Shown one piece after another: positions 7,298 through 15,768 of a stretch of DNA of 21,011 nucleotides (positions within the stretch are counted from its first letter, which is position 1; every line of letters starts with the position of its first letter). Origin of the DNA: a virus. The notes under the pieces are model-generated. The model made no database searches. It was not told the origin of the DNA and saw only the letters and a program-made list of their open reading frames with translations. The stretch is from positions 1 through 21,011 of IMG/VR virus record IMGVR_UViG_3300042522_001021; one strand, given 5' to 3'. The position numbers and the translations under genes are program-made.

Positions 7298-7304
7298 TAT
7301 TTAA
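7298..7304 (-). promoter_or_regulatory. TTAAATA box, 5 nt before gp4
   Basis: TTAAATA then ATAAC then GTG. The TAA of the box is also the stop codon of the upstream repeat-protein gene (7301-7303). Confidence 0.6.
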
Positions 7305-9457
7305 CTTTTCAATAATAAACTTCTGATTAAATTGTAAATCACAGAATCATTTAATTTTTCCTTTTGTTCCGTAGGTTCTACTATTTCTAAATTTTGTAGA
7401 TCAATTCCAGATATATATTTTATCAAATTTCTGCTAATCGTAATTTTTTGTAACTTGCTAGAATAAATAACTACATAGTCTCCTTTAAGTTCTTGTAACT
7501 TTGGTAAATAAATAATATTTGCGTTATGAGCACGGATATAACCGCTCTCTTTTAATTGTGGTAATTCTATTTTAGCAGCTTTTTCACAATCAATATCACC
7601 ACTTTCTTTTAATTGTGGTAAATGTAATGAACGTATCGAATTCGAAGAAATTTTACCACTTTTTACTAATTCTGGTAATGATAAAGTCTGTGTTAAACTA
7701 GCATATATAGCCCCACTCTGGATTAATTCGGGTAATGATAAATTTAATGTTCTTCGGCAGAAAATAGATTTACAATATTTTAATTTTGGTAACGATAAAT
7801 TTCGTATTTCTTCAAAAAGAATATTTTCACTTTTTTCTAATTGTGGTAATGTTATTGTTATGGCTTTTTCGCATCCAATATCACCACTTTCTTTTAATTG
7901 TGGTAATTCCAAATTTGTCGCTAAATGTGCAGTTATATTACCACTCTTTTTTAAGAATGGTAAAGATACAACTGTTGCGTATTCGAAATTCATATCTCCG
8001 CATTCTACCAAATTAAATGGAAATAATACATATTTAAGAGGCCATACAAATCTATCTAAAATAACCACCCCATTTTCATTTATTTGATGTTTTCGATTAT
8101 TTAAAAAATCTTGAACAATTTTATTTATATTTTTATTAAATTTTGGATCATCTTTCTTTAAACTTAAAAACCACATGGTGCTACCAAAATTTTCCAAAAA
8201 ACTATTTGAAAAATTTTCCACATCTTTCAAAGCATATAATTGATTTGGCGTAAAATCCAGTCCATCTTCATAATCATAGTCGTCAGGAGTCCATTCCGAT
8301 ACTTGAAGTTCCACTCTTCTTTTTACATTTTGTAAATATTGTTTATGTAGTCTAGGCTTTCCTTCGAAAACATAATCAGGAATATCATATTTTTCCGTCA
8401 CATAAATAGCCTTTTCCAAAATCTTATTCCATTCTTCTTTTGGAATTCCATTCCATTCTTCTGGTTTTATATCTTTAAATGATGCAAACGTCACTCGATC
8501 TTCCGTATTTTTAAGTTCTAAGATACTTTCTAAATCATAAAATTTTTGATAGAATTCCAATTCTCTGCCTCTAATTCGAACATAATTGAATACATTATTT
8601 TCAAAAGGTTCTGTCAATTCTGGGTAAAGTTTCAATAATTCTTCTTTAGAAATACTAATATCCTCATTTTCTGTCATCGGATTGTACTGTAATTCTCCAT
8701 CTTCATCTACATCAACCAACATATAGTGTCCTCTTTTTTTGAGATAACAGAAATATGTAGTCAACTTGTCGTTCCATCTATAATCATGATAATGATAACT
8801 AGCATTTGACCCAGAAATACACAGATTTGTTCCTTTTCCAAATTCTTTACATCTTTTGACTCCATTAATCGGATTTTCCGTATCATTAGCCAAATACACC
8901 GCAACTTCATCATTTTCGAATAATGCTTTTTCGGTTTCAGTTTTTTTAATTTCTTGTGGTTTATGTTTTTCCTTACCAGCAAAAGAATGCACAATATCCA
9001 TCCATTTTGGAATACCTTTTTGAAAAAGATTAGAAAATTGAGGGTTGTTCAGTAATTCCTCTTTCTTATCTAAACTATCTTTGTAATCATGCAGAAGAAC
9101 TGGTAATGCTCTATTATATAAATTTTTATTAATCTTGGATTCATCTCCATTAATCTGATTAACATATTGTTGTGTACCAGACATCATAAGCAAAGAATTA
9201 ATCAAGCTCATTAAATCTTTACCTTCAAATAATTCCCCGCCTTTTTGTTTTTGTATTTGTAATATCTGATTTATTATATCAGTAGCTATCGAATCTGCTT
9301 CTTTTTTTAAATTTAGATTAGATTTATAAAGAGAAGATCCAGTAATAAATTTAGCCAATAATTCTTTAGGATCATCGGATTTTATAACATCTCTAGCTTC
9401 TAATAAAATTCTATTATAATATATATCAAATATATTATTTTCATCATTCAACAACAT
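7301..9457 (-). CDS. Large protein with C-terminal 19-residue leucine-rich-like repeats
   Basis: A 718-residue protein of unknown function. Residues 1-165 are mostly helical. Around residues 205-265 is a compact domain with KGTNLCISGSNASYHYHDYR, then YFCYLKKRGHYMLVDVDEDG; similar G-T-x-C-I-S plus YR patterns occur in other large phage proteins, but I cannot name the family. Residues ~300-470 are charged and helical. From ~476 to ~665 there are nine to ten tandem 19-residue repeats of the form [LI]xLPxLxxSGxI followed by about seven variable residues, expected to fold as a beta-solenoid or leucine-rich-repeat arc, usually a binding surface. The start at 9457 has a GTAAATA box 5 nt upstream. 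It is inserted between the putative spanin and gp4. It has no signal peptide or membrane segment, so it could be a virion-associated recognition protein or a cytoplasmic host-interaction factor (inference). Confidence 0.85.
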   Translation of the reverse strand: MLLNDENNIFDIYYNRILLEARDVIKSDDPKELLAKFITGSSLYKSNLNLKKEADSIATDIINQILQIQKQKGGELFEGKDLMSLINSLLMMSGTQQYVNQINGDESKINKNLYNRALPVLLHDYKDSLDKKEELLNNPQFSNLFQKGIPKWMDIVHSFAGKEKHKPQEIKKTETEKALFENDEVAVYLANDTENPINGVKRCKEFGKGTNLCISGSNASYHYHDYRWNDKLTTYFCYLKKRGHYMLVDVDEDGELQYNPMTENEDISISKEELLKLYPELTEPFENNVFNYVRIRGRELEFYQKFYDLESILELKNTEDRVTFASFKDIKPEEWNGIPKEEWNKILEKAIYVTEKYDIPDYVFEGKPRLHKQYLQNVKRRVELQVSEWTPDDYDYEDGLDFTPNQLYALKDVENFSNSFLENFGSTMWFLSLKKDDPKFNKNINKIVQDFLNNRKHQINENGVVILDRFVWPLKYVLFPFNLVECGDMNFEYATVVSLPFLKKSGNITAHLATNLELPQLKESGDIGCEKAITITLPQLEKSENILFEEIRNLSLPKLKYCKSIFCRRTLNLSLPELIQSGAIYASLTQTLSLPELVKSGKISSNSIRSLHLPQLKESGDIDCEKAAKIELPQLKESGYIRAHNANIIYLPKLQELKGDYVVIYSSKLQKITISRNLIKYISGIDLQNLEIVEPTEQKEKLNDSVIYNLIRSLLLKS
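7470..8030 (-). repeat. Tandem ~57-bp coding repeats (19-residue units)
   Basis: The repeats in the gene above are visible as DNA: the plus-strand string cttttaattgtggtaa recurs several times at about 57-bp steps. Two units (near 7560-7620 and 7850-7910) are nearly identical over about 45 bp, encoding LPQLKESGDI followed by DCEKAA or GCEKAI. This suggests recent duplication or gene conversion between units. Boundaries are approximate. Confidence 0.8.
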
Positions 9458-10034: not shown

Positions 10035-11282
10035 TTATTTTATGTATTCTATTCTAATTACGGAATTGTCTGGAAATATATGTTTAGCACTTCCAGCCCG
10101 TTTTTTCATATGATATGTCATATTTGGAAGTTTTTTGATTCTTCCTAATAAAGATCTATCACATTTAAATTTATTACAACAATCGGTTTCGCTAAGACAA
10201 TAGACAGGTTCGTTATCATTTATAATGATATTAAAAGGAAATTTATATTTAAAATTTAAATATTTTTTTGTTTTATGTTTAGTTTTGTTATTTTTCAAAA
10301 AAATCCAATTTTCGATTTTTTCTTTTTGGCGATTTATAATATCGTTTATAATATTTATATCTAATTTAGGATTATCCTCTATATTACAAGGAATTAACTT
10401 GATTATAGATTTATCAGAAAAATAATGACTACTGTTTAATTGTCTTGTTATTTTATGTCCATTTTCTTTTGATTTTTTAAATTTTCTCAAAAGAGTATCA
10501 TATGAATTAAATGTTTTGCAGAAAAAGCTTTCGGATTCACAAAAAATAGGTGTTTCGTCATCTATTTGTATAAAGAATGGCTTTGCTGTGGGAAATATAC
10601 AATCTTCTCCTTTCATTTCTTTATAGGTTTTTCCTTTATTAGGAGGGCCATTGTAATTTTCCCCGTATATTTCTATAGCAGTTTTTCCTTTTGATGGATT
10701 AACCCAATTAGGATTATTGAGTCTTTCTCGCATCTTTTTGCCTTGTTGTCTCTCGGAGATTTTCTTAAATGATTCTAGTTCTCTTTCTGTAAATTGTTTA
10801 TTTTTTCTTCTTTCTATTCTTTGTTGCGTACTTTTAATTTCTTTTTCCGTTTTACCAACTTTTTCCATTCTTAGTCTTTTAGATTTTAATCTATTTTCTA
10901 CTTGTTTTTTTATTATTAGATCTTTATTTTTTCCGTATTGTTCTTCGTAAGATTTCCCCTTTCTCAAATTAATGTATTTATGTCTTCCCGGAGACTTCCC
11001 TCCTGCATCTATATTAGACAAATATCCATCTCTAGTAACTAATCTTCCACATTTTTTGATTATTTGTTTTTCTATTTTCCATGCTTTTTCTAATGGAATC
11101 ATTTTATATATTATTTTTCTTATGAAATAATTATCTGGTAAGCTATTAACTATCTTTTGATGAATAGAGTTTCTTTTTAAATAAGAAACTCTAAAATAAG
11201 ATCCTATCCCAACATAAAAAATTTTTTTAGTTATCGGATTTATATCAACATAAACATTAACTTTGTATTTTCCGTCATACAT
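10035..11282 (-). CDS. GIY-YIG homing endonuclease
   Basis: The 415-residue protein has an N-terminal GIY-YIG nuclease domain (about residues 8-95). The signature is VYV, ten residues, then YVG, followed by Arg in GSYFRVSYLKR. A helix with the catalytic Glu follows (EKAWKIEKQIIKKCG), then LSNIDAGGKSPG. Behind it come Lys-rich helices and several GK[ST]-xE-xYG motifs (GKSYEEQYG, GKTAIEIYG, GKTYKEMKG) of the type found in NUMOD3-containing phage nucleases, and two diverged copies of a C-terminal motif (PIFCESESFFCKTF and PVYCLSETDCCNKF) that probably bind DNA. It is free-standing between gp13 and the spanin-like gene. An ATAAATA box lies 3 nt before ATG rather than the usual 5. The target is likely in a neighbouring conserved gene of relatives lacking the element. 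Confidence 0.8.
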   Translation of the reverse strand: MYDGKYKVNVYVDINPITKKIFYVGIGSYFRVSYLKRNSIHQKIVNSLPDNYFIRKIIYKMIPLEKAWKIEKQIIKKCGRLVTRDGYLSNIDAGGKSPGRHKYINLRKGKSYEEQYGKNKDLIIKKQVENRLKSKRLRMEKVGKTEKEIKSTQQRIERRKNKQFTERELESFKKISERQQGKKMRERLNNPNWVNPSKGKTAIEIYGENYNGPPNKGKTYKEMKGEDCIFPTAKPFFIQIDDETPIFCESESFFCKTFNSYDTLLRKFKKSKENGHKITRQLNSSHYFSDKSIIKLIPCNIEDNPKLDINIINDIINRQKEKIENWIFLKNNKTKHKTKKYLNFKYKFPFNIIINDNEPVYCLSETDCCNKFKCDRSLLGRIKKLPNMTYHMKKRAGSAKHIFPDNSVIRIEYIK

Positions 11283-12546: not shown

Positions 12547-12747
12547 TTATCCTTCTGCTGGTGGTGCTCCTTCTGCTGGTGGTGGAGCTTCTGCGCCAGC
12601 TTCTGGAGGTGGTGATTCTTCTCCTCCTTCTGGTGGAGGTGGTGCTCCGCCCATTCCTCCCATTCCGCCACCACCCATTCCTCCACCCATACCACCACTT
12701 GGTGGTGCTCCGCCTCCGGGTGCTCCGCCTCCGGGTGCTCCTCCTGC
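12547..12747 (-). repeat. GC-rich tandem-repeat tail of the portal gene (Gly/Pro-rich, 66 codons)
   Basis: The 3' end of the portal gene is visibly GC-rich against an AT-rich genome. It contains a 15-bp unit (plus strand GGTGCTCCGCCTCCG) repeated in tandem near 12703-12744, plus GGTGGT runs. It encodes GGGAP repeats, then GGMGGG-type repeats, then PPPEGG/PPAEG. Such a tail is expected to be disordered and is not part of the T4 gp20 fold. Confidence 0.85.
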
Positions 12748-15700
12748 TTCTGCTTGTGCAGCTATGGCTTGTTTCCAATTTGGTCCCATATTTTCAATTT
12801 GAGTTAATTCCCAACGTAATTCTTTATCTTTTCTTAGGAATTCGCGATTAGCTTTAATATCAATATCACTCCATCCTAAATATCTTTTCTGTGCAAAAGA
12901 CGGAGAAATAGATTCATTTGATGCTAATGAACCAAAGTTTTGCACTTTAAGTTCTAACTTTTGACTTTCTCTCAATTCGTAGAAGTTAGTTGGAACATTA
13001 AATTCAATATGAATAGTTTCTTCTTTTAATTCATATTCTTTCCACATTCCTTTTAATTGTAAATGTGTAATAAATCCGTTCTTTAATCCACTTGCAAAAA
13101 TATTTTGCAAACGAATAATAAAACGAGCAAATTTTAATTCTTCACGAAGCATATCAGCACCATCACGAAATGCATCTTGTGGATCTAAACGAGTCGTAGG
13201 AACCTTTAGAGATTGATAAAGTTTCTTAACGAAGTACATCAAATCTGCTAATTCTCCAAGATTTGAATTTTTCGTAAATACCCCACAATCAAGGGCAAAC
13301 GTATGATAACCATGATATCTTTCTTCATTATCAATCGTCAATGTACCTACTTGAATCTTGTTAGGAAGCTTCTCGACACTAACTAAACGATGGTTGAATA
13401 GTTCGCATTCTTTGCGGAATTGCTTCCATGTTTTATATCCAAAGCTCTTAACCATCGGTGCAAAATGAGTATAAGAAATCTTAGTTCCACACCAATTTTT
13501 AATCTTTCTACCTTCATTTAACTTCAAGAAATGACCAAGAATTTCTGGAGTATTGTTAATAATATCACATAAGTCTTCCTTTGTTACTTCATGTGTAGTC
13601 TTTCCGCGTACTTGATCAATTACAAATTTAAGAATCTTATCATCAAAAATAAAAGATTGTGTTTCTGTTAATTTTTTTGAAGCATTTACATAATTTTCAT
13701 TTTTCAATAATTTTTCGTAAGATTTAGAAAAATGAATTTTTCTTTCTTCTTCAGACATTGCAGCAAACTTTGATTTAAGTCCTTTGCTTATCTTCGATCC
13801 ATATTCTTTCTTAAATTCTGAATCTTTTAGCTTTTCTCCTAAAGCAATTGGACCTAATTTTCCATTTTCTCTTGAGATTTCTGCACGAACCGCTCTCTCT
13901 TCTGGTGATAAATTGGAAAAATATTCTTTAATTTCCTTACTTATTTTAGAACAGTGTTCAGTTTTTTCTTTTTCTGAAAAAGAAGACCACATATTTTTTG
14001 TGTTTTGTGATATTTTTTTACAGTACTCTTCGTATTTTTCGTAATTATTTTCTTTGAGATATTTCAATCTTTCGACAGAAGCCATAGTTCCTATCATTGG
14101 TTCGAATTTTATATCTCTATGTAAAATGATATGATCTTTGGCATTAATAAATGCTAAATTATCAGGAGCATTGTCGAAACGATTTAAATTTTTATGATGG
14201 ATTACATCTTTCTTAGAACTTAAATATTTTTCGGAATATGTCATTTCCTCATGTTCATTAACATTTTTGAAGAAATTAGCTACCATTCTATGGGTATATT
14301 CCCATGTTTTGGTATCATTTTGATATACCATTTCATATTCATTAGTATTCTTACTAATTTTTTCGTTCTTAGTGTAAAAAGGTATCATACTCTCGCCTAT
14401 TTCTAGATCTTTTGCTTCTACAAATCCTTTTCCTAAAATTGGGAATTTATGATCAGGTGTACAAATTAATTCTTTTCCATTATCAAAAGTAAGTTTATAC
14501 ACTTCAGCTTCTTCTTGTGTAACGCCAGCCCAAGTAACTAAACCGGGGGCTACGTGACCAGTTTTCGGATCTGTGCTATACACCCATACTTTCTTATCTT
14601 CTTTGATTTCTTGCTCAATTTCGCTTATAGTTAAAGTTCTTCCGTCCAATAATGGAACTTTAGTATTCATAGCTAAACATGCTCCAGCCAACTGTGTTAC
14701 GCTAGTTCCTTCAGATCCAGCACGTTTTGCAAACCAAAAGTTATCTAAAATAGATTGTGGCTTAAACTTTTGTACAATATTTCCTTGATCTGGATCATAT
14801 GTTTTAGAAGACCAATAATTCGTAATTAATTTACGAAGATACGCCTCTGCTTTTGGTGCTGGCATGTTACCAACATCCACATTAAACACTAAACGTTCTG
14901 GAGCACGAGCCAAACGATAAATGATAATCGAATCTTCAATCATCGACAATTGACGATAAGCTCTGCGAGCATTTTCTAAAAATGGCAAACGCATTGTTTT
15001 GCTTTCGTTCCATACGTCAGAATGTACATAAGTAATCTGATTTTTATCCATCGGAATGTAATCAATTCCAATTTGTTTTAATGGATTATTTGGATCGAAT
15101 TTAGGTTTACGATACAAATAACCCTTTACCATTACGTTTTGTACATTAGAAAATACAGGATCAATTAATTCAGTGGGAACTTGCACAACTCCCAAAACTC
15201 CTTCTTCTACATAATCTTTATGGATAATATGTTCCCAATAGATTTCTCCTTCTACTAATAATTGACGAAAATAACTCCATCCTTTGTGCTCGAAGTCAAA
15301 ATAATTAGTATACTTTAAAAATTCCTTTTCAATTGTTTCTTTTTGAAAATCAGAAAGATTAACGTTTCTGTATTTTATTTTCAGACAGCTACTAGTATGT
15401 GGATCTATATTGATAATTTCATCACAAATCTCATCTAATGCATTTGCAACTTCTGAGAAAGCTGCCATGATACGATAATCTTTAACACGAGCCAATTTAT
15501 CTTTTTGGATATTGGCATACATCACTTCACTGTATCGTTTATCCGAAGATACAGTTCCTACAGTTTCGTTGTTAAATTCAAAATTTTGCGAAATTGAATG
15601 ACGAGAAAGAACCTCTGCTCTTTTCATTCCCGTATCTTCGAAATAACGATACTTCGGATTTAAATTCTGAACCATTTGAGTAGTATCAAAACCAGAATAC

Positions 15701-15768
15701 GGAAGTTTAGATGAAATATAATTCATCAACTCTTGTTTAAAGGACGTAGATCCATTAATTTCAGCCAT
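12547..15768 (-). CDS. 20: Portal vertex protein, T4 gp20 family, interrupted by an intein
   Basis: Dodecameric DNA entry and exit channel that nucleates prohead assembly. The precursor has 1073 residues: N-extein 1-363, intein 364-834, C-extein 835-1073. The mature portal would be about 602 residues (T4 gp20 has 524). Family segments include FSEVANALDEICDEI, DIDPHTSS-like NIDPHTSSCLKIK, YIPMDKNQITYVHSDVW, RRAYRQLSMIEDSIIIYRLA, RLVFNVDVGNMPAPKAEAYL and, rejoined across the intein, TSVTQLAGA plus SNLGELADLMYFVKKLY, the conserved NLGE region of gp20. The last 66 residues are an unusual Gly/Pro/Ala/Glu tail. The start at 15768 has a GTAAATA box 5 nt upstream, and a terminator follows. It is flanked by gp15-like and gp13, its partners at the neck. 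Confidence 0.95.
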   Translation of the reverse strand: MAEINGSTSFKQELMNYISSKLPYSGFDTTQMVQNLNPKYRYFEDTGMKRAEVLSRHSISQNFEFNNETVGTVSSDKRYSEVMYANIQKDKLARVKDYRIMAAFSEVANALDEICDEIINIDPHTSSCLKIKYRNVNLSDFQKETIEKEFLKYTNYFDFEHKGWSYFRQLLVEGEIYWEHIIHKDYVEEGVLGVVQVPTELIDPVFSNVQNVMVKGYLYRKPKFDPNNPLKQIGIDYIPMDKNQITYVHSDVWNESKTMRLPFLENARRAYRQLSMIEDSIIIYRLARAPERLVFNVDVGNMPAPKAEAYLRKLITNYWSSKTYDPDQGNIVQKFKPQSILDNFWFAKRAGSEGTSVTQLAGACLAMNTKVPLLDGRTLTISEIEQEIKEDKKVWVYSTDPKTGHVAPGLVTWAGVTQEEAEVYKLTFDNGKELICTPDHKFPILGKGFVEAKDLEIGESMIPFYTKNEKISKNTNEYEMVYQNDTKTWEYTHRMVANFFKNVNEHEEMTYSEKYLSSKKDVIHHKNLNRFDNAPDNLAFINAKDHIILHRDIKFEPMIGTMASVERLKYLKENNYEKYEEYCKKISQNTKNMWSSFSEKEKTEHCSKISKEIKEYFSNLSPEERAVRAEISRENGKLGPIALGEKLKDSEFKKEYGSKISKGLKSKFAAMSEEERKIHFSKSYEKLLKNENYVNASKKLTETQSFIFDDKILKFVIDQVRGKTTHEVTKEDLCDIINNTPEILGHFLKLNEGRKIKNWCGTKISYTHFAPMVKSFGYKTWKQFRKECELFNHRLVSVEKLPNKIQVGTLTIDNEERYHGYHTFALDCGVFTKNSNLGELADLMYFVKKLYQSLKVPTTRLDPQDAFRDGADMLREELKFARFIIRLQNIFASGLKNGFITHLQLKGMWKEYELKEETIHIEFNVPTNFYELRESQKLELKVQNFGSLASNESISPSFAQKRYLGWSDIDIKANREFLRKDKELRWELTQIENMGPNWKQAIAAQAEAGGAPGGGAPGGGAPPSGGMGGGMGGGGMGGMGGAPPPPEGGEESPPPEAGAEAPPPAEGAPPAEG
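13267..14679 (-). mobile_element. Intein with HNH homing endonuclease in the portal protein
   Basis: A 471-residue intein. It begins at Cys (codon 14677-14679) with the block A pattern CLAMNTKVPLLDG, has block B LICTPDHKFPIL with TxxH at intein residues 74-77, and ends with CGVFTKN (Asn codon 13267-13269) followed by Ser as first C-extein residue. The nuclease domain is HNH type: IHHKNLNRFDNAPDNLAFIN then HIILH (intein residues ~160-187). It is followed by ~200 Lys/Glu-rich residues probably involved in DNA contact. The penultimate residue is Lys instead of the usual His, which occurs in some active inteins but may slow Asn cyclisation. The insertion point lies between LAGA and SNLGELADL, a highly conserved portal site, as expected for homing. 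Removal restores a continuous portal sequence in frame. Confidence 0.93.

Follow-up and report, generated by a model that had tools for sequence, protein, structure and literature searches.

The locus described here raises the question of how a phage might obtain a working portal protein from a gene that is interrupted in frame by an intein, and whether an unusual residue at the end of this intein could set the pace of head assembly. The window, i.e. the whole stretch of DNA that was analysed, comprises 21,011 nucleotides of a viral record from IMG/VR (IMGVR_UViG_3300042522_001021), and all its features mentioned below lie on the minus strand. The gp20 portal precursor gene occupies positions 12547..15768 and its reading frame is open through all 1073 codons. 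Pfam Portal_T4 matches the product (1.5e-93) in two stretches, one on each flank of the intein, T4 gp20 structures match both flanks as well, and PHROGs recognises a portal (PHROG 213). Neighbouring genes encode a tail sheath stabiliser, a head protease, the major head protein and head closure proteins, and this T4-like gene context, together with Portal_T4 over both flanks, places the protein among T4-type portals. A gene identical to it (100%) is present on an independent viral contig, L002. Our reading, in which we have high confidence, is that the insert is a class-1 mobile HNH intein located in the channel loop of the portal, that it splices to leave a 602-residue portal and that it spreads by homing.

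The intein (13267..14679) is 471 amino acids long and corresponds to precursor residues 364-834, from Cys364 to Asn834. It gives matches to Pfam Intein_splicing inside the portal (1.3e-11) and to NCBIfam intein_Nterm (2.8e-10). The N-extein (14680..15768) consists of portal residues 1-363 and ends with TQLAGA (T4 A353), while the C-extein (12547..13266; 239 amino acids and a stop codon) starts with SNLGELADL, whose Ser is the +1 residue at T4 D354, and has a Gly/Pro-rich tail. When the intein is removed, the joined exteins form a portal of 602 residues. The initial annotation had proposed a 471-residue HNH intein at exactly this place, splitting gp20 between LAGA and SNLGELADL, with portals of about 602 residues when spliced and 1073 when unspliced; the domain matches and the intein-free alleles confirm the former, and the computed lengths agree with the latter. 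As alleles without any intein but with identical flanks (LAGA/SNLGEL) occur in contigs L007, L008 and L009, the boundaries of the intein are exact. A split intein or an intron was ruled out, since the frame is open throughout.

Blocks A and B, the C-terminal motifs, the penultimate Lys and the +1 Ser can all be read in the sequence as they had been described. Block A (CLAMNTKVPLLDG, 14641..14679) begins with the N-terminal nucleophile Cys1, block B (TPDH, residues 74-77, 14449..14460) provides the Thr74 and His77 of the TxxH motif, and blocks F and G (IQVGTLTIDNEERYHGYHTFALDCGVFTKN, 13267..13356) contain Asp450, His459, the penultimate Lys470 and the terminal Asn471, followed by Ser+1. In a 23-member alignment of inteins, Cys1, Thr74, His77, Asp450, His459 and Asn471 are invariant. 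The one class-1 sequence feature that is absent is the penultimate His, which is usual though not obligatory and is replaced here by Lys (codon AAA, 13270..13272). As class-1 inteins without this His are known and do splice (PMC5050341), Lys does not bar class-1 membership. The homing endonuclease region (13390..14379, residues from about 101 to 430) is absent or shortened in family members of 147, 222 and 244 amino acids. Within it lies an HNH motif (VIHHKNLNRFDNAPDNLAFINAKDHIILH, residues 159-187, 14119..14205), which is matched by the HNH endonuclease family PHROG 7545 (2.6e-8). For Pfam HNH_3 the window intein falls under the cutoff, and its relative L168 is above it.

An AlphaFold model of the full window intein, built from 23 sequences (pLDDT 87), has the Hint fold expected of a class-1 intein, and two strands (159-162 and 175-178) followed by a helix (180-189) form the beta-beta-alpha pattern typical of an HNH nuclease. 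Foldseek and VIA-align results cover the Hint part of this model. It superimposes on the NrdJ-1 split intein (8ubs) with a Z score of 20.7 and 1.6 A over 142 residues, and this alignment draws on residues from both ends of the window intein, whose predicted Hint domain is closed and complete. Npu DnaE (4kl5) has the same fold (Z 18.6); both inteins, however, are devoid of an HNH nuclease, share only 20-24% identity with the window intein and reside in other host genes. Npu DnaE also lacks the penultimate His, and it is among the fastest inteins known. The same two proteins are the top matches of a model of the mini-intein from contig L003 (pLDDT 73.5).

Mapping to T4 gp20 puts the intein junction at 353|354, between A353 and D354. 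In T4, the channel loop (residues 350-359) runs between the clip domain and stem helix 7 and leaves the DNA channel about 28 A wide (PMC4493910). Because the insertion site is inside this constriction, an unspliced portal should not work, and a 471-residue insert present twelve times in the channel loop should block it. The initial annotation had made portal assembly dependent on splicing, and the catalytic residues, the Hint fold, the purifying selection seen in the family and the channel-loop position all favour this idea; we thus infer that a working portal must come from splicing. Its description of the site as the most conserved one of the portal did not hold: when 245 portals were aligned (effective number 96), the site came out at the 95th percentile of smoothed conservation, and the peak lies around T4 272-289 (RAPDRRVWYVDTG).

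The proposed sequence of events would be as follows. The precursor would be made as a single 1073-residue chain, from which the Hint domain would excise the insert: a thioester would form at Cys1, followed by transfer to Ser+1, cyclisation of Asn471 and a final acyl shift. The cyclisation would probably be helped by the block-F His459, standing in for the missing penultimate His, and the 602-residue spliced portal could then form a dodecamer. In co-infected cells, the nuclease would cut intein-free gp20 alleles, and repair would copy the intein into them. It is from the sequence that we infer splicing and cutting, as well as the role of His459; cutting of the intein-free allele is suggested indirectly, by the coexistence of intein-bearing and empty alleles and by their incongruent histories.

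The survey of gp20 homologues for intein-free alleles that had been suggested with the initial annotation did find them: most close relatives of the portal on viral contigs carry no intein at this site (e.g. L004, L005 and L007-L010). A search of bacterial and archaeal genomes found no portal relatives. Complete intein alleles at the site of the window are of 471 (window), 435 (L053), 244 (L072) and 147 (L003) residues, and all four end with DCGVFTKN before Ser; the nuclease is wholly absent in L003 and partly kept in L072. In L073, there is a frame shift within the nuclease region, near the contig end, so this copy is eroded, frame-shifted or misassembled, and contig L049 breaks off after the first eight residues of its intein. 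The +1 residue is Ser in 81 of the 82 distinct intein-bearing genes with the insertion at T4 354 (among the matches listed). In intein-free close relatives, the corresponding residue is Ala in 41, Ser in 9, Gln in 8 and Gly in 7 cases, repeated fetches of some contigs being counted. We also observed that a contig bearing the same portal sequence (L006 / L079) breaks off some 100 bases short of the insertion site, which could reflect a mixed population of intein-bearing and intein-free phages in that sample.

Exteins and inteins differ in their histories. The portals of the window and L053 are 81-84% identical at the residue level, with dS of 1.3 for one flank of the intein and 3.7 for the other, whereas their Hint domains are 95% identical, with dS of 0.43 and dN/dS of 0.05. 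Conversely, exteins of the window and L003 are 98% identical, and their Hint domains only 64.5%. The extein tree groups the window with L003 (support 100/97), while the Hint tree groups it with L053 (100/90). In the AU test, a grouping of the window with L053 was rejected weakly for the exteins (p 0.041), and a clade of the window and L003 was not rejected with the short Hint alignment (p 0.35); support for incongruence from this test is thus weak, and the case for movement rests mainly on dS values and branch support. Taken over all sampled pairs, the Hint domain is much better conserved than the surrounding portal, and between the window (L143) and L157 the exteins are 23-29% identical and the Hint domains 66%. 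No island of raised flank identity, as left by co-conversion, was seen around the site in the window/L053 pair or in other pairs. Given these different histories, the element appears to move horizontally. Judging by the sequences, the nuclease may also be lost: inteins of 222 (L133) and 469 (L138) amino acids reside in host portals which are 98% identical, so that most of the nuclease has been deleted here, recently and in frame.

Three scans of viral contigs with intein or nuclease alignments yielded at least 220 ORFs with parsable inteins, among which there are at least 139 distinct inteins, all from one lineage (L094-L332). All of the at least 220 ORFs listed match a portal profile that was built partly from the ORF set of the first scan; when eight varied ORFs, most of them outside that set, were checked with Pfam, all eight gave Portal_T4. 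Among the matches listed, insertion points (T4 numbering of the +1 residue) are 354/355 (87), 329 (23) and 317 (20), with a few further inteins at 319-320, 340-342 and 358, and all of them fall within the clip domain and the channel loop. Of the 139 inteins listed, 28 are not longer than 170 amino acids, 14 have 171-380 and 97 exceed 380, and an HNH pattern is present in every one of these 97. Two or three inteins per portal occur in 17 fetched ORFs, some of which are copies (L120, for example, has three). Counts of Cys1, TxxH and the block-F His in the family are partly circular, as these motifs were used in parsing, but the same catalytic residues are invariant in the 23-member alignment, independently of these counts. 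The window intein can thus be assigned, by sequence, to a large and widespread intein family specific for T4-type portals.

What does the penultimate Lys mean in this context? The initial annotation had suggested that Lys in place of His makes splicing slow or dependent on a signal, so that the supply of portal and head assembly would be timed. Some phage inteins are indeed known in which the penultimate residue tunes splicing (PMC5050341). Moreover, nuclease-less mini-inteins with Lys have been kept as a clade of 14 members, recovered in both the extein tree and the Hint tree, as might be a useful regulator, and many sequences of the 23-member alignment, but not all, have a Cys six positions ahead of the terminal Asn. 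However, exact loss from an essential gene is rare, and persistence without a nuclease is therefore expected in any case, while the intein is missing from most close relatives. Lys is also the family norm: among the 139 inteins listed, the penultimate residue is Lys in 91, Cys in 16, Phe in 8, Gln in 7, Tyr in 4, Arg in 3 and His in only 2, with others making up the rest. It occurs at several sites, in members with and without the nuclease, and the mini-inteins which have it are under strong purifying selection (dN/dS of about 0.04; for the Hint domains of L096/L103, dN 0.019 and dS 0.44). Kelley et al. (2016) described mycobacteriophage inteins of class 1 whose penultimate residue is Gly, Lys or Ser, a block-F His can substitute for the penultimate one, and in the RDF intein restoring His made splicing slower than it was with the native residue (PMC5050341). 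Lys thus gives no reason to expect slow or conditional splicing, and the block-F His, which is invariant here, counts against it too. We consider timed splicing improbable, and the family sequences argue that the penultimate Lys is a working family trait and does not point to splicing that is slow or conditional.

It might also be supposed that the intein is dead or deficient in splicing, and that the contig represents a non-functional portal allele. The penultimate His is missing, after all, and the window is known from a metagenomic contig alone. On the other hand, the frame is uninterrupted, the core residues are all intact and invariant, the Hint domain has a dN/dS of 0.05 relative to L053, and an identical gene exists on L002; decay, if present here, would be visible, as the eroded, frame-shifted or misassembled copy in L073 shows. 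We thus regard a dead intein as very improbable, even more so than timed splicing. A broader speculation, to which we give little credence, is that gp20 inteins are useful to their hosts, with inteins of the clip and channel loops splicing in response to a signal of the infection stage, and dodecamer formation and head initiation waiting for it. If this were true, stage-responsive splicing would explain purifying selection on nuclease-less mini-inteins with the unusual penultimate Lys.

The preferred reading, a mobile class-1 intein that splices, has parallels in other systems. Inteins likewise occur in the portal gene of cluster C1 mycobacteriophages (PORT; PMC5050341), though this is a different phage group, and the 14 records of an annotated phage collection which match the window intein (E<=0.01) include no mycobacteriophage, so the PORT inteins are not its near relatives. 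The T4-like phage Maynard also has an intein in a DNA-packaging gene (PMC3868846), but in that for the large terminase rather than the portal. The annotated collection contains 2474 records with a similar portal, yet the only portal host identified among the 14 records is the uncultured LR756508; the other informatively named hosts are genes for polymerases, reductases and deaminases, and there are also some that are unannotated or ‘hypothetical’. The portal of this 484-kb uncultured phage (LR756508.1, L012, 1030-5190) contains three inteins at sites other than that of the window. Within this collection, the window intein is most closely related to the third of them (35.8% over 187 amino acids), which resembles it in having an HNH region and a penultimate Lys, ending with TLKN before Ser; this third intein differs in its portal position and in being one of three inteins per portal.

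In kind, therefore, the window intein is ordinary, and what appears new is the spread of its family through T4-type portals. Our literature search, whose coverage of subscription papers was thin, found portal inteins in mycobacteriophages only, and the gp20 family is apparently undescribed. One odd gene has thus become a family. Its members, at least 139 distinct inteins, interrupt T4-type portals of uncultured phages and cluster in the clip and channel loops, which face the DNA; given the data for this family, a penultimate Lys can no longer be taken as a sign of slow splicing. Ranging from a full nuclease to a bare mini-intein beside many empty alleles, the family is well suited, as a natural series, to studies of how homing proceeds in a structural gene that is essential. 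Protein engineering can draw new inteins from it (short, with Ser+1 and a penultimate Lys), and surveys of phage diversity that rely on gp20 should take note of it, as such an insert breaks up or extends their marker gene.

Some minor observations concern the head gene cluster of the window. A 718-residue ORF with repeated LPQLKESGDI-type motifs (7301-9457) lies within it, and no family match was found for this ORF. Another ORF, of 415 residues (10035-11282), adjoins the head-tail adaptor gene and has no Pfam or PHROG match; its start (KVNVYVDINPITKKIFYVGIGS) is GIY-YIG nuclease-like, and thus it probably encodes a free-standing homing nuclease. Finally, a PHROG homing endonuclease (7e-42) is encoded at 2-1033, next to the major head protein gene, so the head genes of the window may hold up to three mobile nuclease genes.
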